IMG/VR virus record: IMGVR_UViG_3300046512_000087
Span: 1 to 64,000 of that record
DNA from: a virus
DNA length: 64,000 nucleotides
Direction: 5' to 3' (one strand)
Part shown: in pieces, positions 3,618 through 61,105 of the stretch
Layout of the letters: each line of letters starts with the position of its first letter
Position numbering within the stretch: position 1 is the first letter of the stretch
The notes under the pieces: generated by a model
What the model was told of the DNA's origin: nothing
The model's input: the letters and a program-made list of their open reading frames with translations, nothing else
Databases searched by the model: none
Position numbers and translations under genes: made by a program

Positions 3618-3646
3618 ATTGTGTACCAGTTACAGCGGTTTGTCAA
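3618..3646 (-). promoter_or_regulatory. early promoter upstream of SSB gene
   Basis: Minus-strand TTTGACAAACC with the -35 at 3641-3646 and a weak -10 (CACAAT) about 17 bp on. The -35 lies inside the last codons of the primase gene. The -35 block is identical to the other early promoters; the -10 is the poorest of the set. Confidence 0.6.
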
Positions 3647-4644
3647 AGGTCTACGAGATCTTTCAGCTGTTCTCGTATCCAGTCTGGGCCCATTTTATCC
3701 GGGTCCATTTTCACCAGCTCCCCCTTGTAATCGAACTCTTCCGGGTAGCTGATGATGGTCCAAGGCGTACCGGCGTGCTCCAGGTACTCAACATACCTTT
3801 TGTTCGCCGCCTGCCCGGCTACATCGTTGTCATTCATCAAAATCACATGAGGCGCCTGGGCCAGCTTTTTCATTTTGGCTGGAGTCGGCTTGGCAGTCAG
3901 GTTACCTACCACTGTGGGATACACCTTGTCCACGGCAAAGACGTCGAACTGGCCTTCCACCACAACCACGGTGTCCCCGTGATTCAACACTTTCTCGTTG
4001 TACCAGACCAGGGCCGCGTTGTTGCGGTTGTTCCAGGTGTAGTCAAAGTGCCCAGCATGCCCCTTGCCGCCAACTACTGCACGCCCTCGGGCCCCGGCCA
4101 GCTTGCCATACACGTTGGCGTACGGCGCCACGATCATTTCTTTACTGGTGTCATAGCGCAGGTCGAATCGCTCAGCCTGATCACTGGTGACACCCCGGCT
4201 TTTCAGGTACTCGAAGGCAGGCTTGCAATACTTCCACGGCATGAAGCTGTTGATGTAGTGCTGGGGCCATTCTTCGAACTGGTGGGTGTGGTGAGTCGAG
4301 AACTCCGTGTACTCCGGCAGGGCGATCAGATCCACCTCGGAGTTCATCAGAATCTCCCTGGCGGTCTTCAGGTCGTAATGGAGACCCTTGGTGGTCCCTT
4401 TCTGCCGGTACATCTCCAGGGTGCCCACCAGCTCGTCAAGAGAGCCACCGCAGCAGGAGAAGCAGTTGAAGTACGGAGCCTCCCCTGGCGGCAAGTGGAT
4501 AGCGAAGCTGGGGTTATTGTCAGTCCCCTTTTTATGGGTCCAGGGGGCCAACGGGCATTTCGCGGTAATCCACTCGTCGTGGTCGTCAGCGTGAGCCTCA
4601 GACCCGAGAGCATTCAACATTGCCGCTGCCTGCTTGGGGGTCAT
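3643..4644 (-). CDS. DNA primase (zinc-binding plus TOPRIM)
   Basis: DnaG-type primase that makes RNA primers for lagging-strand synthesis. Zinc-binding residues Cys30, His37, Cys61 and Cys64 form a CHC2-type finger. The TOPRIM core follows, with EGQFD at 230-234 and the acidic NDND at 271-274. At 333 aa it is shorter than bacterial DnaG (about 580) because it lacks the C-terminal helicase-binding domain, as is common for phage primases. Start ATG overlaps the upstream stop as TAATG. With the DnaB-like helicase at 5570-6844 it would make up the phage primosome. Confidence 0.9.
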   Translation of the reverse strand: MTPKQAAAMLNALGSEAHADDHDEWITAKCPLAPWTHKKGTDNNPSFAIHLPPGEAPYFNCFSCCGGSLDELVGTLEMYRQKGTTKGLHYDLKTAREILMNSEVDLIALPEYTEFSTHHTHQFEEWPQHYINSFMPWKYCKPAFEYLKSRGVTSDQAERFDLRYDTSKEMIVAPYANVYGKLAGARGRAVVGGKGHAGHFDYTWNNRNNAALVWYNEKVLNHGDTVVVVEGQFDVFAVDKVYPTVVGNLTAKPTPAKMKKLAQAPHVILMNDNDVAGQAANKRYVEYLEHAGTPWTIISYPEEFDYKGELVKMDPDKMGPDWIREQLKDLVDL

Positions 4645-5544: not shown

Positions 5545-5573
5545 ACGATAGGGTAATGCACTTGGTTTGTCAA
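5545..5573 (-). promoter_or_regulatory. early promoter for the 155-aa MGLKIG gene
   Basis: TTTGACAAACC with the -35 at 5568-5573 and TATCGT at 5545-5550, spacer 17 bp. It overlaps the last codons of the DnaB-like gene. Confidence 0.7.
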
Positions 5574-6844
5574 ATATAGTTCAACAAACCAGAGTTCTGG
5601 TCTGGGTTACCTTCCGTGCCAACTTGATTGAAGTCCATTGTCTGGAATCCCCAGTTGATACCGAATTTCCCAATCTCGCCGCTACGGCCTTTCAGCACGT
5701 CTACTGAGCGTTGGTTCAGGGTTTCGACACCCTCTTCTTGCAGCAGGGCCAGGACGATAGAGCTGATCTGGCCTATGGCGTCGGAGTAGCCAATGTCTTC
5801 CAGCCCGGCTGATTGCCCGGTCTTCTTCTGGGCCTTGGCCGCTTCCCGGTTCAGCTGCCAAGAGGCAAAGGTCGGAATCTCAAGCTCCGTGGTAGCGCCC
5901 TTCATCAGCTCCACGTTCTCAGCCACCCTGGTGAACCGGTCGAGTCGGGGGTTGGAGTGCTTCAGCAGATAGGCGCCGTCGATGTACACGGAGCTGACAC
6001 CCAGCTGGCTTGCCAGGAGGTAGACGTCTTCGGCGCTGGCTGCGAGGTTGCCATCCACGACATAAAACTTGCCCGTTTCTTGGCCCATTTCAAGGAGGCC
6101 ACCAGCAAACGTCTTGTAGGTCGAGCTGGAAAAGCCGCCCATTTTCAGCTGGCTGATCGGAGTCTTGGAGTACATGGCGGTCAAGCGCTGGGCTATGGCG
6201 AGGATGTTCATTTCCATGGAGGTCAGCATGACACTACGGCCCTTGCGCCAGTTCAACAGGGCGGAGAACAGAATCAGCCATGTCTTACCCATTGCCGGTC
6301 GGCCCACGTAGCTGATGACGTCCCCCGGCAGTGCACCCCCGGTCATCTCGTCCAAATACGGCCATCCGAACTCAGCCAGCAAATCGTTCTGCAACGTGTT
6401 GTGGTACTGGGCCAGGACCAACTTACCGGACTCTTTGCCCACGTCCATGATCTTGGTCCGGTACTCCTGACCCTTGATCAGCCCAATGGTCTTTTCCATC
6501 AGGGCCACGGCAGGCTTGATCGCGTTCTTGTCCTCTTTCAGCATCTTCTGGCTTTCGAGGTTTGAATTATTGATCAGCCGGTAGGCATAGCGGTCTTGCA
6601 GGTGGTCCAGGTAATACGCGAAGGGCTCCGGCGTATCCAGCTCCTTGACCTCGGGGAACTGTGAACACAGGGTCTCCAGTTGCGGTAGCTGGTGAAACTT
6701 GGTCAGGTGGGCGTTAACCCACGTAAACACTTCCACTTCCCCGCTGATAAACAGGCTCTCGCTGACTTTATGCTTGTGCCAGTCGAGAGCCTTTTGATCT
6801 TCCACGATGCGGCGCAGGGCACGAAGCCCCAGGTTATAAATCAT
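5570..6844 (-). CDS. replicative DNA helicase, DnaB-like
   Basis: Hexameric 5'-3' replicative helicase of the RecA-fold SF4 family. Walker A GRPAMGKT lies at 181-188, and a hydrophobic strand ending in Asp (SSVYIDG, 284-290) supplies Walker B. The first 130 residues form a helical N-terminal domain like that of DnaB. At 424 aa it is close to the usual 450. It directly follows the gene at 6845-7372 (stop TAA then ATG), and with the initiator gene upstream gives the order initiator, possible loader, helicase. The start at 6844 is the only suitable ATG. Confidence 0.88.
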   Translation of the reverse strand: MIYNLGLRALRRIVEDQKALDWHKHKVSESLFISGEVEVFTWVNAHLTKFHQLPQLETLCSQFPEVKELDTPEPFAYYLDHLQDRYAYRLINNSNLESQKMLKEDKNAIKPAVALMEKTIGLIKGQEYRTKIMDVGKESGKLVLAQYHNTLQNDLLAEFGWPYLDEMTGGALPGDVISYVGRPAMGKTWLILFSALLNWRKGRSVMLTSMEMNILAIAQRLTAMYSKTPISQLKMGGFSSSTYKTFAGGLLEMGQETGKFYVVDGNLAASAEDVYLLASQLGVSSVYIDGAYLLKHSNPRLDRFTRVAENVELMKGATTELEIPTFASWQLNREAAKAQKKTGQSAGLEDIGYSDAIGQISSIVLALLQEEGVETLNQRSVDVLKGRSGEIGKFGINWGFQTMDFNQVGTEGNPDQNSGLLNYI

Positions 6845-7372
6845 TTAAGCCACCGTGATGTAGTGTTTGGTCAAGTGATCTGCGAACACCCGGCCATATT
6901 CAGCGGCCAGCGCAACCATGTCCTCGACGTAAACCACGGTGGGTTTATTGGAAGTCAAGCGGTGCAGCAGGATGTCGTAGACGATCTGCACCTTCCACGC
7001 GGGGAGGGCCTTACCGACAGAACGGAGAAACAGGTTTGGAATCAGCATTACGGTCGGGTCCGGCAGGGCCTTCATATCCTTGAGGTCCAACACGGTAGTC
7101 AGCGACATGACCCGAGCATCCACGAAGTTGCGCAGGAAGGCACCAGCAATTGCCATCATGCGTTCTTCGGGGGAGGCCGTGCCAGTGAGCACAAGTCCGG
7201 TGCCCTGGGCTTGGTAGTCGCGGAAGTTCACCACCCAGTCAATTTCTGCTGGGGTGCAGTAGTCCTTCATGCTGTGGTGAACGTACATCGGCAGCACGTT
7301 GGCAACCTGACAGATACCCGGCAGGTCCAGCAACAAGCGCTTGTGATGCTCGGGATCAAGAATAGAGTTCAT
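6845..7372 (-). CDS. hypothetical protein in helicase-loader position, 175 aa
   Basis: Lies between a winged-helix initiator and the DnaB-like helicase, where many phages carry a helicase loader. The sequence has alternating helices and one hydrophobic strand ending in acidic residues (VVYVEDM) but no Walker A motif, so it is not a DnaC-type ATPase. The start at 7372 (MNSILDPEHH) is preferred over the in-frame ATG at 7396 because GAAAGGTG is well spaced before it. A promoter at 7461-7489 can serve it separately from the initiator. The loader role is inferred only from gene order. Confidence 0.6.
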   Translation of the reverse strand: MNSILDPEHHKRLLLDLPGICQVANVLPMYVHHSMKDYCTPAEIDWVVNFRDYQAQGTGLVLTGTASPEERMMAIAGAFLRNFVDARVMSLTTVLDLKDMKALPDPTVMLIPNLFLRSVGKALPAWKVQIVYDILLHRLTSNKPTVVYVEDMVALAAEYGRVFADHLTKHYITVA

Positions 7373-7385
7373 GGCAACACACCTT

Positions 7386-8351
7386 TCAGCTTCCACTCAT
7401 TTGGTTTAGGAGTGCCATGGTTGCTGCAATCTCATCAGCACCCACTTTTTCCGTAGATGAAGTATCTTTTACCAGAGTGGGTTTGTCAAATAAAGGTGCA
7501 GACGCCTTGACTGGTTTAACGGGGGCAGGGATTGCAATCAATTGCACGGCGACGTCGTGGTACTGGACCAGGAACCCAATCACCGGCTGCTCAGGTGCAG
7601 TCGTCAACCCCTTCTTCGCTTTCACTTCCCAGGCAAACGCTGACCAATTCTGGAGGGCCCAGTCAAGCACCTCAAAGCAACGGTCTCCCAGAGGCTTGAT
7701 CAGGTGCTTGAGTTGACCCACCTCCTTGGAAGTCAATTCCTTCTGGTAGTTCCCGTCATTCAACAGAGACATGCGGCTTTTCCACAGCATAGCCATACCA
7801 GATGCTGTTACTTTGCCAGTAGGTACGGCTGATTTTTTGGCTTCTAATTTCGCCATGACGTCATTGAGTTTCATGTCCCCATCCCCTGCAACTTCAGTTG
7901 CGTAAAGAGTCTCTGTTGTAGTCTGTGTTGTAGTCTCTGTTATAGTTTTGCCCTCAGGGGCAAATGGAAGTTTACAAAAAGACAAATGGAATACTTCAGA
8001 AGGGCAATTCAGGACCTTCTTTCCCTCCACACAAACCAGCCTGCAATGCTGCGTTGGGCTCCCGTCAAAGCGCATGATCTCCGCTTCGATAATCCCCTTG
8101 CTGATTAAAACGTCCATGCAGCGACGGGCCTGTTTCAGCGTCATCCCCAGCTCTGCATTCCAATCCTTTGTAGACTTGGCCAGCCACCACTTCCCCTGGC
8201 GCAGTACACGGAGTTTAGACCCTCCGTTTTTGGCTGGCTGATACCAGTAGAAAATCTGACTCAGCATCAGCGCAGCCATCACATCCCCATCCAACAAATC
8301 AACATATGACCTTTGAAAGGCCACAACTTCGTTAGTTGGCTCTTCAGTCAT
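7386..8351 (-). CDS. replication initiation protein, winged-helix (lambda O / replisome-organizer type)
   Basis: Probable origin-binding protein. Residues about 10-110 fit a winged helix found in phage replisome organizers (LMLSQIFYWYQPAKNGG, then STKDWNAELGMTLKQARRCMDVLISKGII). A Thr-rich linker (TITETTTQTTTETLY, about 135-150) separates this from a C-terminal helical domain. The linker DNA is a tandem array of three 12-bp repeats (7908-7943), recalling lambda, where the origin iterons lie inside gene O. A 14-bp repeat copy (7533-7546) is read as VQLIA. The start overlaps the upstream stop as ATGA. The family call rests on pattern and on the helicase next door. Confidence 0.72.
   Translation of the reverse strand: MTEEPTNEVVAFQRSYVDLLDGDVMAALMLSQIFYWYQPAKNGGSKLRVLRQGKWWLAKSTKDWNAELGMTLKQARRCMDVLISKGIIEAEIMRFDGSPTQHCRLVCVEGKKVLNCPSEVFHLSFCKLPFAPEGKTITETTTQTTTETLYATEVAGDGDMKLNDVMAKLEAKKSAVPTGKVTASGMAMLWKSRMSLLNDGNYQKELTSKEVGQLKHLIKPLGDRCFEVLDWALQNWSAFAWEVKAKKGLTTAPEQPVIGFLVQYHDVAVQLIAIPAPVKPVKASAPLFDKPTLVKDTSSTEKVGADEIAATMALLNQMSGS
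7461..7489 (-). promoter_or_regulatory. early promoter inside the initiator gene
   Basis: TTTGACAAACCC with the -35 at 7484-7489 and GATACT at 7461-7466, 17-bp spacer. It would transcribe the possible loader and the helicase independently of the initiator. Confidence 0.65.
7533..7546 (-). repeat. 14-bp inverted repeat, copy 4
   Basis: Exact copy inside the initiator gene, read as QLIA; 44 bp upstream of an early promoter -35. Confidence 0.95.
7908..7943. repeat. three tandem 12-bp repeats in the initiator gene (candidate origin iterons)
   Basis: Plus-strand units AGTCTCTGTTGT, AGTCTGTGTTGT and AGTCTCTGTTAT follow one another without spacer, with a partial fourth (AGTTTT) after them. They encode the Thr-rich linker of the initiator. 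Position and structure resemble the lambda origin inside gene O; origin function is inferred. Confidence 0.55.
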
Positions 8352-8557
8352 TTGAAGTATTCCATGTCGATCTGGTTGACCATGCGGGGATGGCGGGATT
8401 CCAACGTACGGCGGGCGATGGCCTCCAGTTCCAGCTCTGAATGGCTCAGATGGATCTTCATTTGCTTGGCCAGGGCTACGATGTTACTGGTGGGCACAAG
8501 CAGGCCTTGTTGGTCTACCAGCACCCCATACTCTTCGTCGAATTGCAGGATATCCAT
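8348..8557 (-). CDS. hypothetical protein, 69 aa
   Basis: Small soluble protein, mixed charge, no recognised family. It starts after a good GGAGAAG ribosome-binding site and its stop overlaps the initiator start as ATGA, so it is the leading gene of the initiator operon. A strong terminator (8572-8605) lies just upstream of its start, so an unseen promoter or partial read-through must supply its transcript. Confidence 0.65.
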   Translation of the reverse strand: MDILQFDEEYGVLVDQQGLLVPTSNIVALAKQMKIHLSHSELELEAIARRTLESRHPRMVNQIDMEYFK

Positions 8558-10126: not shown

Positions 10127-10155
10127 TGCGACCACTCCATTGTTTTGTTACCCGT

Positions 10156-10183
10156 ATCTTACCAAATACGGGTAGTTTGTCAA
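10156..10183 (-). promoter_or_regulatory. strong early promoter with overlapping inverted repeat
   Basis: TTTGACAAAC (-35 at 10178-10183), 16-bp spacer, TAAGAT (-10 at 10156-10161). Arms ACCCGTAT and ATACGGGT form an 8-bp inverted repeat enclosing the -10, a likely operator. The leader downstream carries CAATGGAGTG at 10133-10142. Confidence 0.85.
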
Positions 10184-10187
10184 ATGA

Positions 10188-30776: not shown

Positions 30777-31390
30777 CAGAACACCGGTCGGTAGGTGAAG
30801 CCGATGTTCCTCAGATAAGGGCTCACGATAGCCATGGCATGATCACCCGACATACGAGCGCCCTTCTCGGCTTCGTCATTGCGGTTGGTAGGGGCGCCGA
30901 AGTTCCAGACGACGGGCACATAAGCCAGGATAGCCTCGGTGAGCCAGTCAGGCACGATCTCGATGTCCGAGTCTTCGTAGCCCGAGGAATATGCCACCTT
31001 CACGAACTTGTCGGAGTACATCCGTTGGTCCACGTAGACGATTCCTCGAATGTAATCCACCTTGCCCGCTGTGGTGATATCCAGGGGCTCGTTGCATTCG
31101 TTCCAGGCCCGGCCACTGGTGATAGTCAGGGCGAGGTCTTTGCGTGCGAGGCCAGAACGCAGCTTCAGTCGGAACAAGCCCGCTGGAACTACGTCGTTGA
31201 AGACACCCGGGTCGAGGTGAAAGATATCTTCACTCTCCTGGAACTGGAGATTGGAATCCAGCTCCACGCCGATCCTCAATTGAGCCGCACCGATTGCCGA
31301 CTCAATAAAGGGAGCTACACCCAGGATGTCATCACCGATGGCCATGCGGCTTTTCACTACTTCGTTTGAAATCAGCAAAATGTCAGTCAT
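30776..31390 (-). CDS. head-tail connector (adaptor) protein
   Basis: Probable ring protein joining portal to tail, of the HK97 gp6 / SPP1 gp15 kind. The N-terminus is helical, with beta segments in the middle (DYIRGIVYVDQRMYSDKFVKVAYSSGYED), then PDWLTEAILAYVPVVWNF, a pattern common in this family. It is 204 aa, somewhat longer than gp6 (about 110). Its position between capsid and tail-completion genes supports the call. Confidence 0.72.
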   Translation of the reverse strand: MTDILLISNEVVKSRMAIGDDILGVAPFIESAIGAAQLRIGVELDSNLQFQESEDIFHLDPGVFNDVVPAGLFRLKLRSGLARKDLALTITSGRAWNECNEPLDITTAGKVDYIRGIVYVDQRMYSDKFVKVAYSSGYEDSDIEIVPDWLTEAILAYVPVVWNFGAPTNRNDEAEKGARMSGDHAMAIVSPYLRNIGFTYRPVF

Positions 31391-31404
31391 GGCCTTGCTC
31401 CTGG

Positions 31405-31830
31405 TTAGACCGGTACGCCGTCGCCGTCGTTTTCCGAACCTTCAGGACCGTCTTCATCCAGGTGGTCGAAGAGTTCTGCTTCTTCTTCCTCGGTGGACAG
31501 GCTCAGACGGCCTTTGGAATCAACGGCGCCTTGTTCCAGCAGAGCGGCGTTGGCACTGATCGTTTCTTCACGCTGGAAGTAGTTGTCGATCTTGCCCTGG
31601 CGGTCCTGGGCTTCAGGCTTTTTCCAGCGCTTGAACATCGGTGCGCCGTCCAGTTCCCAGCCCAGCATGACCAGAGCCTGATCCTTGTTGGCGGTGTAGG
31701 TCACGCCCGACTCGTAGAGCTTGCCCTGGCGATGCACACGTTGGACTTTACCGGCCAGGACCAGCTTCACGGTCTCTACTGCCGGTGCGGCGTTTTCATT
31801 TGCGTCTTTGTCGGTGATGTTGATGCCCAT
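31405..31830 (-). CDS. capsid-adjacent protein with acidic tail, 141 aa
   Basis: Unknown. The first 80 residues may form a small beta domain (VKLVLAGKVQRVHRQGKLYESGVTYTANK), while the last 40 are strongly acidic (TEEEEAELFDHLDEDGPEGSEND). It lies directly after the major capsid gene and a terminator. Head-completion or scaffold-like roles are possible. It begins MGINI, loosely like the MGLKIG starts elsewhere. The ribosome-binding site GGAGT is well spaced. Confidence 0.65.
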   Translation of the reverse strand: MGINITDKDANENAAPAVETVKLVLAGKVQRVHRQGKLYESGVTYTANKDQALVMLGWELDGAPMFKRWKKPEAQDRQGKIDNYFQREETISANAALLEQGAVDSKGRLSLSTEEEEAELFDHLDEDGPEGSENDGDGVPV

Positions 31831-31878
31831 TGCCCTGTTACTCCACTGTTTTGGGAAAACCCGATTCTAGGGCCTTCT

Positions 31879-31892
31879 TGCAATTGATTGCA
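31879..31892 (+). repeat. 14-bp inverted repeat, copy 15
   Basis: Exact copy in the gap between capsid terminator and the 141-aa gene. Confidence 0.95.
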
Positions 31893-31901
31893 ACGCCCAA
31901 T

Positions 31902-31935
31902 AAAAAAAGGGCGAAGCCTAAGCCCGCCCTTTTTC
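31902..31935. terminator. terminator after the major capsid gene
   Basis: AAAGGGCG and CGCCCTTT form a strong stem, with T-rich runs on both sides, so it could work in either direction. It would give the capsid message a defined 3' end. A 14-bp inverted repeat lies 10 bp away at 31879-31892. Confidence 0.88.
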
Positions 31936-31951
31936 TTAACCAGCCCGGCTA

Positions 31952-32887
31952 TTACTGGCCGATGTTGGTGTACTTGACTACCGCATTCACTTCTTCGATC
32001 TGGAACGCCACACGGGCGGTCAGCACGATGATGAACTCACGGGTAGTGATGTCCTTATCGTATTCGATGGTGATCTGACGCTGCACGCCGAAGATGAAGT
32101 TCAGTGGGTTACTGAACAGACCGTTGGCAGTAGGCATCAGCGGCACGCCGGTAACCTGGGAACCGAACACGAACAGCGGCAGGTTGCCTTGAACTTGTTG
32201 GTCACCCAGAGCAGTGGCGCGCTGGCCGTAGATGTCGCGCATTTCGGTTTCGTTGTCGGTCGAAACGAAGTGTTTCAGAGCCGAGCGGTTACGCAGGTAC
32301 TTGTCAGGCATGGTTTTGACGCCAGTCTTGATCAAGTCCTTGTTGAACGGTACGCCGCCAGCGTCAACGACGTTAGCAGTGGACAGCTTCAGCCAGCCAT
32401 CTTGCAGAGCCAGATAAGCGTCACCGGAGGTGGTGTCACCACGGATGCCCAGCTCTTCCAGGTCGAGAGCAGCACGCTCGCCCATCATGTCAACCAGGGT
32501 CTGATGCAGGCCACCGGCGCCGGAGGTAGGAGCAGCGTTGATGTTGCCACGCTCGATGTTGTCTTCGATCACGTCGTACGGCAGACGGACTTCGGCAATC
32601 ACTTCCTTGGTGTTCAGGGTCACTTGACCCAGATCAGGCTTGGAGCGCTGGCTTTCGGTCAGAGCAACGCCAGAAGTCGCGGCGCGCAGGATGCGGTTGC
32701 CGAAACCGATTTTGTTGATCTTCATTTCCGGGGTGTTCATGGTCACCGTGCGAACGCTTTGCAGCATGGTGTCCTGGTCGATCAGCGTGCGGATGAAGCG
32801 GTCGGTCTGGTCCGGGTTCAGCTTACCAGCGACGGCCAGATCAGACAGCGCCATGTCGGCCTTTTTGATCAGTTCTGCATTTTCCAT
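31952..32887 (-). CDS. major capsid protein
   Basis: Probable HK97-fold head subunit, 311 aa. Typical features are a helical N-terminus, NKIGFGNRILRAATSG, an extended stretch with RLPYDVIEDNIERGN, the long helix LVDMMGERAALDLEEL, and a C-terminal beta region (RQITIEYDKDITTREFIIVLTARVAFQI). The gene follows a protease and a scaffold-like gene and is followed by a strong terminator, the usual capsid arrangement. I see no clear cleavage site. Confidence 0.85.
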   Translation of the reverse strand: MENAELIKKADMALSDLAVAGKLNPDQTDRFIRTLIDQDTMLQSVRTVTMNTPEMKINKIGFGNRILRAATSGVALTESQRSKPDLGQVTLNTKEVIAEVRLPYDVIEDNIERGNINAAPTSGAGGLHQTLVDMMGERAALDLEELGIRGDTTSGDAYLALQDGWLKLSTANVVDAGGVPFNKDLIKTGVKTMPDKYLRNRSALKHFVSTDNETEMRDIYGQRATALGDQQVQGNLPLFVFGSQVTGVPLMPTANGLFSNPLNFIFGVQRQITIEYDKDITTREFIIVLTARVAFQIEEVNAVVKYTNIGQ

Positions 32888-32920
32888 ATCAATTTCCTCG
32901 GTACTAAGGGTAAGGCCGAC

Positions 32921-34060
32921 TTATTTGTTCCGTTGCTGCCGGGGGATCATGGCGGTATCGAACATCCCGGTGCGTGGATCGGGGTTTTCAGTTTTCTGGA
33001 CCAGCTGGCCGCTTGGGGTGTCGCCACCAGCAGGAGGCGCTGCAACCAGTCCATTCACTGCGGTAACCGCACTCTCAGACTTCCGAGCGATTTCGTCAAC
33101 ACGACCGCCCAGCTCTTTTTGAGTTTCTACCAGGGTGGCCTGACCTTCAGCAGTCTTCTGGACCAGTGCGGTCAGAGAAGTCAGGCTCTTCAGGATTTCT
33201 TCCAGGCCACCTTCGGACTTGACCACAGCTTCTGCAACCGGGGCCGGAGCTGTAACGGGCTCTACAACAGGTTCTACCGCTGGAGCCTCGGGCGCTGCTG
33301 GTACTTCAGGCACAGCCGGAGCTTCTGGAGCCGCTGGCTTTTCACCTTCTTCAACCTTGGCTGGCTCGACCACAGGCTCTTCGGTCTTCTGGATCAGGGT
33401 GAGAGCCTTGGCAACCTCGGCTTCCATCTTGAACGCCTGGGAAGGCAGACCGTTGATCAAACCAGTGACGTAGGTCTGGAAGTCGGTGAACAGCTTGGTC
33501 GCATCGCCAACGGCATCAGTCGGGCTGGACGAGTTGTAAAGCAGGGTGTACAGGGTGTCGGTGAACACACTGGTGGCAGTACGCACCGAGTCGTAGAAAC
33601 CCTGGGCCTTCACGGCGGTAACGAAGTCACTCGAAACCTCATCGGAGTACGGCGCGAAGGATTTCATGACCAGCGCAACATCGGCAGACAGCTTCACCAG
33701 CTGGTACTCGCCACCTTCGACTGGAGTCTCCTGGCGGAACACAGTGGTGCCGTCTTCGCCGGTTTCCATGGCATCGACTTTGAAGCCGTTATCTTCCAGG
33801 GATTTACGGACGGCCTCCAATTCAGGGCCCACCTTTGCAGCCGTAGCCACACCAACAATCACTGGACCGGTGGAGACTGCTTGGGCTTCACCCTTCAGTA
33901 CCCGCGAGATCGCAGTGCTCAAACCATTCAAATTGATCATCAGGTTGCCCCCTTCCTCGGATTTCAGTACACGGAACGGAATCTTGTTCGCTCCACGCTT
34001 GACCAGTGAGATGTAGCCGACATTGGCATCCGTCATCTCAGTAATAACTTTCTTCACCAT
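32921..34060 (-). CDS. scaffold-like head protein with Pro/Ala/Glu-rich linker, 379 aa
   Basis: Likely internal scaffold. The last 100 residues are coiled-coil-like and charged (SLTSLTALVQKTAEGQATLVETQKELGGRVDEIARK). Residues about 230-275 are a low-complexity Pro/Ala/Val/Glu linker (repeats of PEAPAVPEVPAAPEAPA). The N-terminal 90 residues carry a small domain (ANVGYISLVKRGANKIPFRVLK) of the kind fused to prohead proteases and XkdF-like proteins. It lies between the protease and capsid genes, where scaffolds sit. Confidence 0.72.
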   Translation of the reverse strand: MVKKVITEMTDANVGYISLVKRGANKIPFRVLKSEEGGNLMINLNGLSTAISRVLKGEAQAVSTGPVIVGVATAAKVGPELEAVRKSLEDNGFKVDAMETGEDGTTVFRQETPVEGGEYQLVKLSADVALVMKSFAPYSDEVSSDFVTAVKAQGFYDSVRTATSVFTDTLYTLLYNSSSPTDAVGDATKLFTDFQTYVTGLINGLPSQAFKMEAEVAKALTLIQKTEEPVVEPAKVEEGEKPAAPEAPAVPEVPAAPEAPAVEPVVEPVTAPAPVAEAVVKSEGGLEEILKSLTSLTALVQKTAEGQATLVETQKELGGRVDEIARKSESAVTAVNGLVAAPPAGGDTPSGQLVQKTENPDPRTGMFDTAMIPRQQRNK

Positions 34061-44723: not shown

Positions 44724-44755
44724 GGCTCACTCCATTGGATTTGTTTCTTAGGCGT

Positions 44756-44783
44756 ATCTTACCAAATTTGGTCAGTTTGTCAA
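44756..44783 (-). promoter_or_regulatory. early promoter for the 353-aa/phosphatase 1 operon
   Basis: TTTGACAAACTG (-35 at 44778-44783), 16-bp spacer, TAAGAT at 44756-44761. It overlaps the end of the phosphatase 2 gene. The leader has CCAATGGAGTG at 44728-44738. Confidence 0.82.
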
Positions 44784-45248
44784 AGATTTACGCCAAAAGA
44801 ACAGCCACGCCCACCGGCGTTTTGCCGCAATACGATCAAGGATCACATCCTGGATCTTGAACTCCATGACGAACTTGTACTGGTCTGCCGTCTCCACGGC
44901 GTGGGGGTAGTAGTTGGCGCGCACGTACTCCACGGGGTTCTCCACCCCGAATGCCCGAGCCAGGACAGCCAGGAACAGCCCGGTGCGGCCTCTGCCTGCC
45001 ATGCAGCCTACGTATACAGGCTTGCCAGCCAGGATGAAGTCAACAGCCTCACGCAGGCCACGGGACAAATCCACCGGATCAGGGACACTGAAGTCCCGAG
45101 TGGGGATGTTGATCGAGCACGGGAGGTTGATCTCCTTGGCCATCTTGACGAATTCCATTTCCGGGTAATCGCGGGCCTCATGGCTCGGGCCACCGGTCAG
45201 GGTGAAGTATTGTTTCGAGTTCAGCGGGATTTGCAATTGACCAAGCAT
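44772..45248 (-). CDS. CX5R protein phosphatase-like protein 2, 158 aa
   Basis: Short paralogue of the phosphatase at 42970-43665. GCMAGRGRTG gives Cys82 and Arg88 of the C-x5-R loop, then FLAVLARAFG, then YVRANYYPHAVETADQYKFV, aligning with its paralogue. The N-terminal part (SKQYFTLTGGPSHEARDYPEME, SINIPTRDFSVPDP) has the loop usually holding the general-acid Asp. The C-terminus is basic and aromatic (RRWAWLFFWRK). It starts after the CAATGGAGTG leader but no promoter is seen just upstream, so it may be read from the PPDK-like promoter. Confidence 0.78.
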   Translation of the reverse strand: MLGQLQIPLNSKQYFTLTGGPSHEARDYPEMEFVKMAKEINLPCSINIPTRDFSVPDPVDLSRGLREAVDFILAGKPVYVGCMAGRGRTGLFLAVLARAFGVENPVEYVRANYYPHAVETADQYKFVMEFKIQDVILDRIAAKRRWAWLFFWRKSLTN

Positions 45249-48269: not shown

Positions 48270-48302
48270 TTACCGCACTCCATTGGGTTTTTCCTTACCC
48301 GT

Positions 48303-48330
48303 ATGATCTCATATTTACAGGGTTTGTCAA
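48303..48330 (-). promoter_or_regulatory. early promoter of the PPDK-like operon
   Basis: TTTGACAAACCC (-35 at 48325-48330), 16-bp spacer, GATCAT at 48303-48308. The leader has CCAATGGAGTG at 48276-48286. Confidence 0.75.
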
Positions 48331-48334
48331 ATGA

Positions 48335-49638: not shown

Positions 49639-49672
49639 ATCTGCCTCCGGGGTGGATTTGGTTTGAAGTTGT

Positions 49673-49700
49673 ATCGTACTTTAGGTACTAGGTTTGTCCA
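49673..49700 (-). promoter_or_regulatory. early promoter for the ligase operon
   Basis: TTGGACAAACC variant (-35 at 49695-49700), 16-bp spacer, TACGAT at 49673-49678. A 14-bp inverted repeat (49708-49721) ends up 8 bp upstream of the -35. Confidence 0.75.
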
Positions 49701-50016
49701 ATGATTTTGCAATTGATTGCACGCGAGCATCCCGCAGGCGTACACGGCGCTTCAGGGTCTGAAGGCTGTAATACACCATCTTCTCTGCGTCGTATACGCC
49801 GTCCTTGTCCATGCCCGGCTTGAACAAGTCCTGCTCCCTGGCAGCGCAAGAACGCCAGATAGCCTTGAACTGGTTGCCCTCGGCAAACGTCATGTTCAAA
49901 GCGTTGATGATGTCCTCACACTCACAGGTGTAGGGCTCTGGCAAGTTGGCAGGCTCGGGCACAAACAGCTTGTAGTACCCAACTGACCCACCAGTAGCCT
50001 TCTGTTCTTCACTCAC
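49681..50016 (-). CDS. hypothetical protein, 111 aa
   Basis: Unknown soluble protein. Two Cys (CECED) near residue 30, then a helical body (NALNMTFAEGNQFKAIWRSCAAREQDLF, KMVYYSLQTLKRRVRLRDAR). Its last residues (VQSIAKSLD) are encoded by the 14-bp repeat at 49708-49721, and its 3' end carries the promoter of the ligase operon. It overlaps the upstream HTH-like gene by 8 bp. Confidence 0.65.
   Translation of the reverse strand: MSEEQKATGGSVGYYKLFVPEPANLPEPYTCECEDIINALNMTFAEGNQFKAIWRSCAAREQDLFKPGMDKDGVYDAEKMVYYSLQTLKRRVRLRDARVQSIAKSLDKPST
49708..49721 (+). repeat. 14-bp inverted repeat, copy 23
   Basis: Exact copy 8 bp upstream of an early promoter -35; also read as QSIA at the end of the 111-aa gene. 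Confidence 0.95.
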
Positions 50017-52880: not shown

Positions 52881-52911
52881 TATCTACTCCTTAGATTTTG
52901 TCTATACCGGT

Positions 52912-52939
52912 ATCTTACCTTATGCCTAGGGTTTGTCCA
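52912..52939 (-). promoter_or_regulatory. early promoter for the DUF262/HNH operon
   Basis: TTGGACAAACCC (-35 at 52934-52939), 16-bp spacer, TAAGAT at 52912-52917. A repeat variant (52946-52959) stands 7 bp upstream of the -35, as at 49708 and 55170. Confidence 0.8.
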
Positions 52940-52945
52940 ATGTTT

Positions 52946-55104: not shown

Positions 55105-55137
55105 TTCACACTCCATTGGGTTTTGATGCCTTTGGTT

Positions 55138-55165
55138 ATCTTACCTTAGGCATCTGGTTTGTCAA
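55138..55165 (-). promoter_or_regulatory. strong early promoter with overlapping inverted repeat
   Basis: TTTGACAAACC (-35 at 55160-55165), 16-bp spacer, TAAGAT at 55138-55143. Arms GATGCCT (55125-55131) and AGGCATC (55148-55154) enclose the -10. A 14-bp repeat (55170-55183) lies 4 bp upstream of the -35, and CCAATGGAGTG is at 55109-55119. Confidence 0.88.
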
Positions 55166-55169
55166 ACCT

Positions 55170-56200: not shown

Positions 56201-56670
56201 GATGGCAGTACCAAGGCAGGCAACTCGGCCAGGAACTCTTCCACGGTTGGCTGGGTGCGTTGTCCGCTCAGGACCTTGGCAAGCTGGTCATAAGCATACG
56301 CCCACACCAGGGAACGCCACTCCCTGAAAGCCTTACCGTCCTCCTGGAACTTCGGTACTGCTGGCTCTTCCGCATAGCTCACGGCGGTAGAGATACTGTC
56401 GTAGCGGGCCTCCTGGGCAGCACCATCCAGCTTGGCCTGCACAGCTTGCTCGTACTGGGCGGTGATGTCTTCCGTGGTTGGGGGAACAGGCTGTGCAGGT
56501 GCTGGAGCTTCTGGCAAGACAACCCATTCACCGTACCAGATTGCTACCTCAGTGCCGGTCGTCTCAGGAGGGGAGGTAGAGGTGCTTCCCAGCGGCAAAG
56601 GCCCAAACTCGTCTACCTCTACAGTTCCTTTGTAGAGAAAATCAGCACCCCATAGGTACAAAGTAATCAT
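56197..56670 (-). CDS. probable tail fibre assembly protein, 157 aa
   Basis: Small helical protein with a Pro/Thr-rich linker (PEAPAPAQPVPPTTEDI) and a C-terminal helical part (AAQEARYDSISTAVSYAEEPAVPKFQEDGKAFREWRSLVWAYAYDQLAKV). This wording, with an alanine-rich helix followed by EG-x-A-x2-W-x3-W, is typical of phage tail fibre assembly/chaperone proteins. Its start overlaps the fibre gene stop (ATGA), the usual place for a fibre chaperone. Confidence 0.72.
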   Translation of the reverse strand: MITLYLWGADFLYKGTVEVDEFGPLPLGSTSTSPPETTGTEVAIWYGEWVVLPEAPAPAQPVPPTTEDITAQYEQAVQAKLDGAAQEARYDSISTAVSYAEEPAVPKFQEDGKAFREWRSLVWAYAYDQLAKVLSGQRTQPTVEEFLAELPALVLPS

Positions 56671-58739
56671 GATAGTACCTTCGCTTTGATATAAGCCTGC
56701 GTGTTTACGTTAACCGTAACTTCTGGAGTTACGAATTGAGTGGCTACGTCATACGGAACCCGTAAGAAGGTAGCGGCAATGGCAGTACCGTACGCCAGCT
56801 CTACAAAAACCCCGGCGCCATACGCACCGACCTGCCAAGGAGCAGCCACGGGCAGCACTCGCTGTAACCAGGTCGCCCCATCTACCGAAGTTGCCGCCAC
56901 GGCAGTACCATTGACTGCTGCGACAAATACACCATTACCAAACGCAAGGGTATACCAGTCGTCGCTAACCGGCATAGTCGCCCTGTTCCAGCCTCCTGTG
57001 CCGGACGATGAGTAATAAACGCCATCTGTGTACTCGCAGGTTACGACAAATACACCATTGCCATAGGCGATGGAAAGGATGGTATCCCCGGCAGTACCAG
57101 AGATAGTCCGCTGCGTCCAAGTTATCCCGTCTGGAGAAGTTAAATAGAGGGGTACTCCGTAGGCTATCGCTACAAATAAGCCGTTACCGAAGATAACCTG
57201 AGTCCAGGAATAGACGGGTGTGGGAAGGGTGCGCTGCACCCATGTAATGCCATCCGTGGACGTAGCCGCAATAGTGGAGTCTTGGGCAATGGCTACAAAC
57301 GTTCCGTTACCGTACGTGACAGATTTCCAAGTAGTCGTAGTTGGCAGAGTGCGTTGTGTCCAGGACGCCCCAAGGTTTGTGGAGGTGGCAGCAATAGCCG
57401 AGCCCGAGGCTACTGCAACAAAGACCCCAGCACCATACGCAATGGCTGCCCAGTTCGCGGAAACAGGAAGCGCTCGTTGCACCCACGCGCTGCCGTCTTG
57501 GGAGGTGGCAGCGATAGCCGAGCCGTACGCAATAGCTACAAACGACCCGGCATTAGAGGTTGACCTGCCATAGGTAGCGGCAATCCAATTTGCGCTAACT
57601 GGCAGCGCGCGCTGGGTAGTTAATGAATTGTACAGAATGCCTAGTACAGAAAATAACTCGGGGTAGCTACTCTGCAAGTACACAGTGTTGGCGGGCAGGT
57701 ACTCAAGATTGGGTACGATGTCCAGCGTGATGCAGTTGCCAGGGGCGTTACTGTTGGTGCTGACCACTAAGAAAGTAGCGCCGCCGAATACGATAACACC
57801 CGTGTTATTCGCAGTAGGCATAGCCACGGATACCCAATTTACCCCGTCCGAGGTCATGGCTGTATTACCGCCAGTTTGGCTGGACGTCAGAAACACACCC
57901 CCGCCAAAGGCTATCTTATACCAACTGGACTGTATGGGCAGCACACGCTGTACCCAACTAATACCGTCAGTAGATGAAGCTACGATAGTCGAGCCCGAGG
58001 CTACCGCCATAAACAGACCATTACCATAGGCTACAGCAGACCAAGCCGCAGACAGGGGCATACTTTGCTGCACCCAGGTGATTCCGTCTACAGAGGTGTA
58101 CGAGACCGCGCTATTGGCAAGAATTGCCAGGAATTTCCCCCCACCGTACGTAATAGCTGCAATGCTGATGCTCGCTGGGAAGGCTCTTTGCACCCAAGTA
58201 ATGCCGTCCGTAGAGGTAGCAAAAACAGTAGATGAGGTGTTATATGCCGAGGGGGTCGCTACAAACAGGCCCCCACCGTACACCAAGGTCGCCCAATATT
58301 GAGTAGATGGAAGGGTGCGCTGTACCCAAGTGATGCCATCCGTGGACGTAGCCGCTACGGCTGTATTGTTGCTAAGGGAGACAAAGACCCCTGCTCCGTA
58401 CGCGATACAGGCCCACACACCAGACACTGGTAGTGCTTGTTGGGTCCACGTTAGTCCGTCCACAGAGCGTAAAGCTGTCGTGCTAGCGGTTCCAACTGTC
58501 AAGACGTATGCCCCTGCGCCGTACGCCCCTCCTGTCCAGGCTGCACCAAGCCCGGTGGTTCTTGCTGTCGCTTTAAGCTGGGACGGTAGCTTACGAGTGG
58601 TGAGCAGAATATCGCCAATGGCTTGTCCCCCCGAAACTACGGGCACCCAACTATTGGCCGCGACACTCCAGGCGTACTGCTTTGTGGTATCTGCTGGCAG
58701 GTTCGCAAGGTTAGCCAGATTTCGTGATTGTCCAGGCAT
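56667..58739 (-). CDS. tail fibre / adhesin with fourteen propeller-like repeats, 690 aa
   Basis: Receptor-binding candidate. About 14 repeats of some 40 residues carry the pattern S-x-DG-I-T-W-V-Q-R-x-LP then W-x-x-I-A-Y-G-x-G-x-FVA, a beta-propeller (BNR-like) signature. Seven precede and seven follow a short segment (LPANTVYLQSSYPELFSVLG) that matches a tail-collar-like piece of the paralogous fibre upstream. The N-terminus (QAIGDILLTT) is also collar-like, so the first propeller interrupts a collar module. The C-terminus ends ATQFVTPEVTVNVNTQAYIKAKV, like that of the other fibre. RBS is GGAGAAAG. Confidence 0.8.
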   Translation of the reverse strand: MPGQSRNLANLANLPADTTKQYAWSVAANSWVPVVSGGQAIGDILLTTRKLPSQLKATARTTGLGAAWTGGAYGAGAYVLTVGTASTTALRSVDGLTWTQQALPVSGVWACIAYGAGVFVSLSNNTAVAATSTDGITWVQRTLPSTQYWATLVYGGGLFVATPSAYNTSSTVFATSTDGITWVQRAFPASISIAAITYGGGKFLAILANSAVSYTSVDGITWVQQSMPLSAAWSAVAYGNGLFMAVASGSTIVASSTDGISWVQRVLPIQSSWYKIAFGGGVFLTSSQTGGNTAMTSDGVNWVSVAMPTANNTGVIVFGGATFLVVSTNSNAPGNCITLDIVPNLEYLPANTVYLQSSYPELFSVLGILYNSLTTQRALPVSANWIAATYGRSTSNAGSFVAIAYGSAIAATSQDGSAWVQRALPVSANWAAIAYGAGVFVAVASGSAIAATSTNLGASWTQRTLPTTTTWKSVTYGNGTFVAIAQDSTIAATSTDGITWVQRTLPTPVYSWTQVIFGNGLFVAIAYGVPLYLTSPDGITWTQRTISGTAGDTILSIAYGNGVFVVTCEYTDGVYYSSSGTGGWNRATMPVSDDWYTLAFGNGVFVAAVNGTAVAATSVDGATWLQRVLPVAAPWQVGAYGAGVFVELAYGTAIAATFLRVPYDVATQFVTPEVTVNVNTQAYIKAKVLS

Positions 58740-58760
58740 GTCTTTCTCCGAAAGCGGTTT

Positions 58761-58774
58761 TGCAATTGATTGCA
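58761..58774 (+). repeat. 14-bp inverted repeat, copy 27
   Basis: Exact copy in the gap between the two fibre genes. Confidence 0.95.
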
Positions 58775-58783
58775 GGAATCTGG

Positions 58784-61105
58784 TTACAGCTTGGCCCGGA
58801 TATAGGCGTTGAGGCCCTTGGTAGCTTTCACTGCCGGTGTCTTGAACTGCGTGGACGTGGTGTAGTTTGTGCTACGAGTCAGGCGGTAGTACACGGCAGT
58901 GTCAGCAGTAGTCTTGTCGTTACGCGCAATGCAGTTACCATCGGAATCAAACGTGTGCGAGATAGGGAACATCGCCCCGTAAGTGGTAACTCGGCTGCCT
59001 GTCCAGGTCTCGCCCTTGTCATAACTGACCCGGAGGTACGGGCCGGTGTAGATGACTATGGTGCCTTCGGGGGTGATGACGATGCTGTGACCGCCCCCGC
59101 GAGAGCCCTCCAGGTTGAGGGACTTCCAATTGATACCAGCATCGGTAGTGAGAAGTGTGCCAAGTCCTGGGCACACTGCGATAGTCATGCCTTGAGCGCT
59201 GTACACCGTGGTTGCTGGCGCTGCACAGGAAATAGTCATGGTCCAACTGGTGCCGTTATCGTACGAGCCGCCAATGCCTGCAAAGCTCGGAGACACAGTA
59301 AACCACGCGGAGATTCCGTCAGAGACGATCAAGTCTACGGGAACACCACCCGGTGTAGCGCCTACCGCAGTCCAGGTCGCGCCATTATCAGTGGAGCGAT
59401 ACCCTTGGCCGCCCGTGTCGCTACAGGCTACCCATACGCCCTTCTTGTCCGTATCGATGGCCCGGCAGGGTGCAAAAGTAGTAGGGTAGATGGCGGTAAA
59501 AGTAACTCCGTTATCGGTACTGCGATACACCCGAGCCCCGCCCGGAACCGTAACAACCCACACCCCTGCGCCATCAGTGGCTACTTGACCAAGGGCTGGT
59601 ATCCCGGTGCCAGTGAGGGTGGCGATGTTGGTCCAAGTAACCCCGCCATCCGTGCTACGCCTCCCCACGCCCAAACCTGAACTCGTCGTGGTTCCTACAG
59701 CAACCAGCACTTTGCTTTGCCCGGAGGCCATGGAATTTACGCCAGACTGGGTAGCTGTAGCCCAGGGAGTAATCGTAGTCCGCGCTGCATACTCGGCATT
59801 CGCTTCGATGTTGCCGACGATTGCAAAAAGTTCTGGGTAGGCAGCCTGGGTGTAAACCGTGCTCGGCAATACGTGGTTGGTCGGCGTAGTAGGGGAGGCG
59901 CTATACAGCACATCGCCAATGGCTGCGGAAGACCCGGCTGTAGCGAAGGTCCCATCACCTCTCAAGAACTTAACCTGATCTCCCGCCACGGGGGTGGGCA
60001 CAAGACCAGCCACACCGGCAGCACTGGCAGACGATCCGACCATCGCTGTAGCCAGCATAGACAACGTGGTGAAGGACATCACCGTCATCTTGTCAGCCAG
60101 CGAAGTTGATGCCGTGGTAAGGACAACTGTCGTGCCGTTGGTGGCCGTGTACTCGGATTTTTCCAGCAGGGCGCCAGACAACCAGACAATTGGGCTGGCT
60201 GTCCCAACAATATAACCCCCTGGGATGGTGAAGCTGGTCTGGCTGGCAGCAGTGGCCTGTACCTCAACCACACTCACGGCAGTAGAAGACGGGCTACCGG
60301 CTTTCTGGTAGTTGAACAGCCGCCATACGTTGGAACCCAAGTACACAGCCTCTACGGTGTCTCCCGAGGCGGTAGTGAGGGCGGCATTGCCTGGGACAAG
60401 CAGGGTGGAACTCGGTGTCAGGGCATATGCACCCTGGAAAATCAGCAGGCGGCGGATGCCGGTAGTGGGTGGCACGGCCATAGAACTGAACACGCCCCCG
60501 GCACCGCTGGCATGAGAAACCAAAACCGTGTTGGCCAGGGTGTTGTAGCCAAGAACTCCGCTGGCGTCTACAGACAGGCCTACGGGTGGAGCCTCACCCA
60601 ACGCAGAGGTCAGAGTACCCCCGGCAAACCCGATGATGCCTGTACCGTCAGCATGGATCGCCCCATCTACCTTCCACACTCCTGAGCCCAGGGAATGGAG
60701 GATCACAGAGGCTCCAGCCAAGCACTGAAAGTCAATGGAGCCTGGGATGACGATGTTGGCGCTACTGGTCAACACCCGAGCAGAGCCCGCTCCAGTGAAT
60801 TGAAGAATTCGGGTAGTGCCTTCCGGCATGGTCCCGAAAGAGGCAATGGCTACGTTGCCCGACAGACTCACCACGTTGGTGGTAGTGGTGCTCAGGTCTA
60901 CGGCGCCCCCGGCAGGGATGGTAAGCACGGTGATCCCGTACCCAGCCAGATTTGCCAGCTTTGTCTTTTCAGTGGTCGTGTAGTCATTGGAAGACAGGCC
61001 GAAGCCTGTCGCCTTGTCCACTTTCCCGCTGAGCCCTGAAAGCAGGGACTTGATGTCTGCCCCAACGGACTGAGCCAGCGCAGTAACTCGGGTCGTCAGG
61101 CTCAT
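58784..61105 (-). CDS. tail fibre protein, 773 aa
   Basis: Paralogue of the neighbouring adhesin. The N-terminus (MSLTTRVTALAQSVGADIKSLL, later LSSNDYTTTEKTKLANL) is of the common phage fibre type. The middle is beta-rich with a tail-collar-like segment (GDVLYSASP, then LPSTVYTQAAYPELFAIVG). The C-terminal 300 residues hold at least four BNR/sialidase-type repeats (YRSTDNGVTFTA, YRSTDNGATWTA, YDNGTSWTMT, YDKGETWTG), ending in TQFKTPAVKATKGLNAYIRAKL. Such repeats are typical of glycan-binding fibres. A terminal repeat-containing gap (58761-58774) separates it from the next fibre. Confidence 0.8.
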   Translation of the reverse strand: MSLTTRVTALAQSVGADIKSLLSGLSGKVDKATGFGLSSNDYTTTEKTKLANLAGYGITVLTIPAGGAVDLSTTTTNVVSLSGNVAIASFGTMPEGTTRILQFTGAGSARVLTSSANIVIPGSIDFQCLAGASVILHSLGSGVWKVDGAIHADGTGIIGFAGGTLTSALGEAPPVGLSVDASGVLGYNTLANTVLVSHASGAGGVFSSMAVPPTTGIRRLLIFQGAYALTPSSTLLVPGNAALTTASGDTVEAVYLGSNVWRLFNYQKAGSPSSTAVSVVEVQATAASQTSFTIPGGYIVGTASPIVWLSGALLEKSEYTATNGTTVVLTTASTSLADKMTVMSFTTLSMLATAMVGSSASAAGVAGLVPTPVAGDQVKFLRGDGTFATAGSSAAIGDVLYSASPTTPTNHVLPSTVYTQAAYPELFAIVGNIEANAEYAARTTITPWATATQSGVNSMASGQSKVLVAVGTTTSSGLGVGRRSTDGGVTWTNIATLTGTGIPALGQVATDGAGVWVVTVPGGARVYRSTDNGVTFTAIYPTTFAPCRAIDTDKKGVWVACSDTGGQGYRSTDNGATWTAVGATPGGVPVDLIVSDGISAWFTVSPSFAGIGGSYDNGTSWTMTISCAAPATTVYSAQGMTIAVCPGLGTLLTTDAGINWKSLNLEGSRGGGHSIVITPEGTIVIYTGPYLRVSYDKGETWTGSRVTTYGAMFPISHTFDSDGNCIARNDKTTADTAVYYRLTRSTNYTTSTQFKTPAVKATKGLNAYIRAKL

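Follow-up and report, generated by a model that had tools for sequence, protein, structure and literature searches.

The window analysed here, a stretch of 64,000 nucleotides taken from a viral record of 93,403 bases, carries three adjacent 12-bp repeats inside a gene for an initiator-like protein. The question that this locus raises is whether the phage starts its replication within that gene and, if so, which repeats serve which step. In-gene origins are known from lambda, SPP1 and RepA_N plasmids, and what comes after the iterons is as a rule only said to be AT-rich. The features of the window on which the analysis rests are as follows.

3643..4644, minus strand: DnaG-like primase (Toprim) of the same replication block (PHROG and Pfam).
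5570..6844, minus strand: DnaB-like replicative helicase, 424 aa (DnaB_C 3e-24, PHROG 2e-44).
6845..7372, minus strand: candidate helicase loader, 175 aa, with a DnaC/IstB-type AAA+ fold (AlphaFold2 pLDDT 96; Foldseek).
7386..8351, minus strand: initiator-like CDS, 321 aa (PHROG O-like 3e-9, DnaD-like 3e-8; AlphaFold2; Delepquintavirus orthologues).
7905..7946, minus strand: module B, the 12-bp array in the register ACAGAGACTACN (TRF rank 1/17, score 64; word common to 24/59 relatives and many other phages).
7947..7964, no strand: 18-bp dyad TTTGCCC-CTGA-GGGCAAA in the last module A unit (sequence; dyads over-represented in module A of relatives).
7948..8013, minus strand: module A, three degenerate 22-bp iteron-like units at 7992-8013, 7970-7991 and 7948-7969 (lag-22 self-match; place as in relatives).

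PHROG profiles matched the window initiator as O-like replication initiation (3e-9) and DnaD-like helicase loader (3e-8) proteins, and phrog_9773 and phrog_6493 (O-like and DnaD-like respectively) were matched by 16 and 23 of the 31 family members. No family was matched in a Pfam search of the window initiator. Among the 31 family members, the lambda-O and RepA_N Pfam models were matched by none; only HTH-type models were found, HTH_36 in 4/31. Foldseek with the initiator model gave weak matches, none with E ≤0.001, and a single-protein search of viral contigs with the window initiator found no relative. The closest named phages by initiator protein were the Stenotrophomonas phages DLP5, Summit and DLP3 (32-34% identity), and orthologues were present in Delepquintavirus phages. 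DLP5 is described as a temperate phage existing as a phagemid (PMC5834331). The AlphaFold2 model (31 sequences) comprised a confident winged-helix domain (residues ~1-105), a disordered linker (~106-161, pLDDT <50 at 118-157) and a separate helical C-terminal domain (~162-273), which together with the PHROG matches is the layout expected of a lambda-type initiator. The array was placed in the disordered linker after the winged-helix domain, between two domains that the earlier note had proposed and that were both seen in the model.

The 12-bp units AGTCTCTGTTGT, AGTCTGTGTTGT and AGTCTCTGTTAT occupy 7908-7919, 7920-7931 and 7932-7943 (plus strand reading) with two substitutions in total, exactly as first described. 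TRF carried the array on to 7946 (3.2 copies, score 64). It was the best of the 12 TRF arrays scoring ≥30 within the 64-kb window and ranked first of 17 in the whole 93,403-base record, where all others scored below 45. We rejected a chance tandem repeat in view of this genome-wide rank and of the recurrence in relatives. On the minus strand the array encodes TITETTTQTTTET, inside the 321-aa ORF (7386-8351). In the register of the relatives the unit becomes ACAGAGACTACN, which is exact at 7929-7940, has one mismatch at 7917-7928 and is degenerate at 7905-7916. Module B is 62% AT, compared to 45% for the record. The single 12-mer was not over-represented in the window (4 matches with ≤2 mismatches vs. 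4.2 expected), and its only unusual feature is tandem clustering.

Module A lies directly 5′ of the 12-mers on the coding strand, and the two modules cover nt 339-447 of the initiator gene. The best lag 20-25 self-match of the ORF was at lag 22 (15/22, P 0.076 taken alone), at the position of the significant arrays in relatives. Module A of the window is weak and would not convince from this phage alone. A 13-bp inverted copy of part of it (7986-7998) lies just before the initiator start codon (8353-8365); its reading as an autoregulatory operator was set aside because comparable pairs exist elsewhere in the genome (several others within 1.5 kb).

The genes that follow the initiator gene had been read as a possible loader and a DnaB-like helicase, and both readings hold (DnaC/IstB fold; DnaB_C E 3e-24), giving the neighbourhood of a lambda-type origin, with loader and helicase encoded beside the initiator. 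All seven PDB matches of the loader candidate with E ≤0.001 were IstB or DnaC (IstB 8q4d, 5e-6; DnaC 3ecc, 4e-5). By eye it had no GxxxxGK[ST] motif; the Walker A stretch, LTGTASPEERM, looks degenerate, and the protein may therefore load the helicase without binding ATP in the usual way. A similar-sized ORF stood at the loader position in 38 of the 40 relatives examined. The genes after the initiator vary among carriers of the word: an own helicase in the window, DnaC in Staphylococcus IME1323_01 and a P-like protein in Yong-L1-251. This variation favours the initiator itself or a host factor as the binder of module B. DnaB-like helicase ORFs of ~760 aa were observed in two relatives, G001 (31175-33448) and G006 (56996-59284); they align with the window helicase over ~230 aa only and could contain an inserted intein or be fusions. 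All 123 genes predicted in the record by a simple caller are on the minus strand, as is the initiator. With the same caller, a one-strand layout was also observed in 15 related records (12 of them 93-102 kb or trimmed at 100 kb by us), while the distant carrier G009 was mixed.

Relatives were collected through a helicase alignment, which gave 71 viral loci, 64 with an initiator ORF upstream (7 were dropped). These 64 plus five named or own sequences, minus the fragment L259, made 68 initiators, which were collapsed at ≥85% identity to a set of 59; six further loci were left out of the structure alignments. Full-length initiator ORFs carried two adjacent arrays, units of 22-24 bp and then units of 11-13 bp. 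Module A in relatives consists mostly of 21-26-bp iteron-like repeats, often dyadic, whose sequence varies between phages, and module B of 11-13-bp repeats just downstream. The first ten initiator ORFs compared all had their best 22-nt self-match (lag 20-25) in the linker (ORF nt 351-476, 10/10). Taken individually, P was 0.0033 (the floor with 300 shuffles) in six of them, 0.02 in G007, and 0.066-0.10 in the remaining three (RHph_Y1_11, DLP3 and the window initiator). TRF arrays scoring ≥50 were present in 38/59 non-redundant initiators vs. 0/55 helicase stretches of the same loci (40/59 vs. 3/55 at a score ≥45), and the middle half of the initiator arrays lay at 39-49% of the ORF. Classified by period at the cut-offs used, 17 of the 59 initiators had both modules, 14 had module A alone and 13 module B alone, and 15 had no array of either class; no strong TRF array was found in the linkers of DLP3, DLP5 and G007. 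Module A preceded module B in 17/17 genes with both, with a gap of 0-14 nt in 15 of them. Dyads in module A of relatives reached P ≤0.05 in 13/25 (mean score 6.0 vs. 3.6 in shuffled sequences), and dyadic iteron-like repeats ~20-24 bp apart were seen in the linkers of many relatives. Periods were not multiples of three in 25/59 arrays scoring ≥45. Third-position GC skew, analysed in 8 genomes, showed no switch at the initiator gene.

The recurrent word of module B is ACAGAGANTACN. The word ACAGAGACTAC (≤2 mismatches) was present on the coding strand of 24/59 initiators and on the other strand of 2/59, compared to a mean of 6.7 and a maximum of 11 when codons were shuffled. Since 42 of the 47 12-mer matches in the 59-initiator set share one reading frame, part of the constraint may be on the protein. 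A tandem pattern, ACAGAGANTACNACAGAGANTAC, with 20 fixed bases, matched at least 120 loci in viral contigs; the reversed pattern, used as a control, matched 2. Among the viral matches listed, 114/120 were in ORFs matching the initiator HMM and 120/120 were in the same frame. In genomes of bacterial species the pattern matched at least 115 loci, and among the matches listed 92/115 ORFs matched the initiator HMM and 106/115 shared the frame; of the other 23 listed, several were truncated or diverged initiators by eye and at least 7 were unrelated (e.g. L448, L461 and L487). By our own estimate, which assumes equal base frequencies, chance would give ~0.5 matches in the 257 billion bases. The record titles of the HMM-positive loci named Gamma-, Alpha- and Deltaproteobacteria, Campylobacteraceae, Firmicutes, a cyanobacterium, Chloroflexi, Nitrospirae, a Tenacibaculum bin, Chthonomonas and candidate phyla, host labels that are soft because many are metagenome bins. 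The word-carrying ORFs, a set chosen by the DNA word, span 24-68% G+C. A search of the open-access PMC literature, with subscription papers outside its scope, returned no paper in which the 12-mer words, or the 14-mer considered below, act as origin or operator elements; the matches, judged by title, were unrelated. Weigel and Seitz (2006) reviewed phage replication modules and may describe such repeats there.

Iterons beside the word were analysed in loci chosen by the 12-mer only (INDEPENDENTLY). From 206 pattern loci positive for the initiator HMM, 181 were kept after dropping those with too little flank or an identical upstream stretch. In the 98 nt just 5′ of the word, a 16-nt self-match (≥12/16) at lag 18-27 was found in 160/181 listed loci, vs. 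10/181 and 5/181 in two control stretches of equal length. Among the 128 loci with ≥13/16 matches, the lags were 23 (93 loci), 22 (18), 24 (12), 21 (4) and 27 (1); a 23-bp period cannot be a protein repeat. We also fetched six named phages (Staphylococcus IME1323_01 and TPWB-09, Pseudomonas CF63a, Acinetobacter Ab9, Vibrio IKEMa6-1 and Synechococcus Yong-L1-251), most of them found by protein similarity to the window initiator, IKEMa6-1 and Yong-L1-251 also through DNA. In all six, the initiator gene carried 12-mers spaced 12 bp apart. In four, the best repeat of the stretch that was fetched had a period of 22-23 bp (≥15/16) and lay just upstream of the 12-mers; in Yong-L1-251 (12/16) and TPWB-09 (13/16 at lag 20) it was weak or further off.

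Because most 12-mers read TE-x-T in one frame, motifs were selected by protein and their codons were then examined. In the 59-initiator set, the motif TE[TSYNIF]T occurred 25 times in 17 genes. Its first Thr was ACA in 24/25 and its Glu GAG in 25/25, and at the third position Ser was AGT in 6/6 and Thr ACT in 12/12; outside the motif, the same linkers used ACA for 36/118 Thr codons and GAG for 41/88 Glu codons. Only ACA and only GAG were used in 16/17 genes of this protein-selected set. A second sample was drawn by PHROG profiles from 81 genomes of one family and 75 of another, those of the Lysinibacillus and Aeromonas genomes used as centres, whose hosts are distant. It gave 46 loci, 27 with an ORF matching the initiator HMM; the motif was present in 8 of these 27 initiators and absent from the other 19. 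In the 8 genes the codons were ACA in 14/14 and GAG in 14/14; codon counts of this kind are inflated by shared descent, and the two samples come from distant hosts. As the same codons are kept in motifs selected by protein, the constraint on module B looks to act on DNA (or RNA), on top of any constraint on the protein. In the samples tested, the word appears to be kept at synonymous sites while the neighbouring iterons change.

These codons bear on the strongest of the alternatives, namely that a low-complexity Thr-rich linker, being disordered, tolerates slippage and gathers repeats that have no DNA role. The disorder of the linker in the AlphaFold model, the single reading frame of 42/47 12-mer matches and the plain low-complexity genes among the pattern matches (e.g. 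L461, L487) are all in its favour. Slippage nevertheless has to contend with a codon lock stronger than regional bias would give, with periods of 23 bp that do not fit whole codons, with a fixed order of A then B and dyads in module A, and with the recurrence of the word over 24-68% G+C in ORFs that were selected by the DNA word. We consider it unlikely. Another possibility is a hinge for recombination: a conserved word in the DNA that joins the DNA-binding half to the C-terminal half would let phages swap initiator domains. The C-terminal parts do differ among initiators with the same word, but a hinge leaves the replicon-specific 23-bp repeats alongside and their fixed spacing unexplained, and one copy would suffice where two to four tandem copies are present, so that this explanation is very improbable. 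Slightly less probable still is a regulatory site (operator, partition or incompatibility) for the initiator or another protein with replication starting elsewhere, to which the inverted 13-mer before the start codon (8353-8365 / 7986-7998) would lend itself as an autoregulatory operator might, although such pairs are unexceptional in this genome (several others within 1.5 kb) and the arrangement fits characterised in-gene origins.

The reading that we prefer is that the linker of the initiator gene is the replication origin of the phage, with the two modules working together. Anatomy, recurrence in relatives and DNA-level conservation of the 12-mer were observed here; binding, melting and loading we infer from sequence, model and analogy, and we regard the whole as likely. 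The winged-helix domain would bind the phage-specific 22-bp units (module A, 7948-8013) as iterons and bend or wrap them, and this binding would open the adjoining 12-mers (module B, 7905-7946). A factor that recognises sequence, whether the initiator or another replication protein, would hold one strand of the opened module B, and the DnaC/IstB-fold protein from the next gene would deliver the phage DnaB-like helicase to the opened DNA. This mechanism is drawn by analogy from lambda O, pSK41 RepA and SPP1 G38P.

The same word at the same place in phage genes of many unrelated bacteria suggests a shared, undescribed step in the start of phage replication. More tentatively, and at a little less than even confidence, ACAGAGANTACN may be a sequence-specific origin-opening element common to phages of very different bacteria and standing beside freely replaced iterons; its reader, at the level of DNA or of a single strand, would be a conserved region of the initiator or a conserved replication factor of the host. 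If true, modules A and B would form a general grammar of in-gene phage origins, and origins and initiators could be found from sequence alone. What recognises melting DNA at a phage origin, and whether it is common across phages, would become directly testable. The word would also make it easy to find origins in the numerous unannotated phages and prophages in which it occurs, and would give a reason why part of the initiator linker cannot drift freely.

A second repeated word, TGCAATTGATTGCA, is found dispersed throughout the genome. It is a 14-bp near-palindrome with arms TGCAAT/ATTGCA and a pyrimidine-purine centre, and it is kept apart from the origin finding because nothing ties it to replication. 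Two further features of the window belong here.

7533..7546, minus strand: one TGCAATTGATTGCA copy in the C-terminal part of the initiator gene (same codons, QLIA, in DLP5, DLP3, Summit, G002 and G007).
10155-10184, 44755-44784, 48302-48331, 49672-49701, 52911-52940 and 55137-55166, minus strand: promoter-like element, TTTGACAAAC, ~17 nt, then a TAAGATA-like motif (repeat families D8, D9 and D14).

The 93.4-kb record has 47 exact and 3 one-mismatch copies of TGCAATTGATTGCA, and none with two mismatches; 28 exact copies lie in the window (508, 2513, 5295, 7533, 9157 ... 62251), where 0.5 would be expected with ≤2 mismatches. The copies are spaced more evenly than at random (P 0.0005 for the largest gap, 4.3 kb; CV P <5e-5). 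Intergenic sites account for 20/50, while non-coding DNA makes up 9%, and several sites are directly upstream of TTGACA-like promoters or over ribosome-binding sites, an array that recalls the stoperators of mycobacteriophages. Related 95-100-kb phages carry the word 20-50 times (exact copies: 26 in DLP5, 24 in DLP3, 26 in Summit; 50 in G007), with 29/30 copies oriented one way in G002 and 21/22 in G011. Some relatives without it have their own variant (GGCAATCAATTGCC 39 times in G021, TGCAATTAATTGCA 25 times in G025, TGCAACAAATTGCA 7 times in a Rhizobium phage), and in G023 neither the word nor a variant was found. In G009 (L183-L187), a low-G+C distant relative of 98 kb, 13 words of the GCCCGAAAGGGC type accompany 9 copies of the 14-mer. 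Tested by co-occurrence, the HTH gene at 972-1397 was not supported as the binder: G006, RcZahn, G025 and G011 lack it, yet the word or a close variant is present in them. None of the genes tested fits every carrier, and the binder may therefore be a host protein. In several places a CAATGGAGTG start region comes after the promoter-like element TTTGACAAAC. The stretch 56766-58405, in the gene 56667-58283 and beyond, contains internal repeats that are 52-97 nt long and 60-77% alike (families D3, D5 and D10); this gene possibly encodes a repeat-built tail or adhesion protein.

Compared with known systems, the arrangement is closest to lambda in place and order. The iterons annotated in lambda gene O begin at nt 349, 369, 393 and 416 (spacing 20, 24 and 23 bp), which against nt 339-447 for the modules of the window makes the analogy close. 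Ori-lambda likewise lies in the middle of the initiator gene, with dyadic iterons and then an unwinding segment (PMC7466680, PMC5043065), and the loader gene and helicase recruitment come next. Comparison gives good support to the place, in the linker, of the lambda-O-like origin put forward in the earlier note, but not to its equation of the 12-bp units with the iterons of lambda. The likely iteron counterparts are the 22-24-bp module A units just 5′ of the 12-mers (7948-8013 in the window), and the 12-mers would make up another, better conserved module where lambda has its AT-rich unwinding segment; they are probably the wrong repeats for the predicted binding of the N-terminal domain. The differences are that the AT-rich segment of lambda is strand-asymmetric and lacks tandem 12-mers, that lambda P loads the DnaB of the host while the phage studied here encodes a DnaB-like helicase itself, and that the 31 family members do not match the lambda-O Pfam model. 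One 2-mismatch match to the 12-mer in the lambda stretch fetched was treated as chance.

RepA_N replicons resemble this arrangement: in pSK41 RepA, whose linker is encoded by origin DNA, the N-terminal domain binds Rep boxes central in rep (PMC5703833), and RepA_N iterons are mostly semi-palindromic direct repeats (PMC7145576). The initiator model gave a weak Foldseek match (E >0.001) to 4pt7, termed a plasmid RepA domain (PMC7145576), but the family differs in having no RepA_N Pfam match among its 31 members. SPP1 gene 38 carries oriL, and Staphylococcus 80alpha ORF20 is proposed to carry its origin (PMC5499656); by description, these replisome organisers resemble the initiator studied here, although the loader of SPP1 is of a different type. 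The DUE 13-mers of oriC and plasmid RK2 are likewise short repeats in tandem next to initiator sites, and both their sequence and their number are important for opening (PMC5043065). Those 13-mers are AT-rich; ACAGAGANTACN, by contrast, is AT-rich only to a moderate degree, is part of coding sequence and is found again in many phages.
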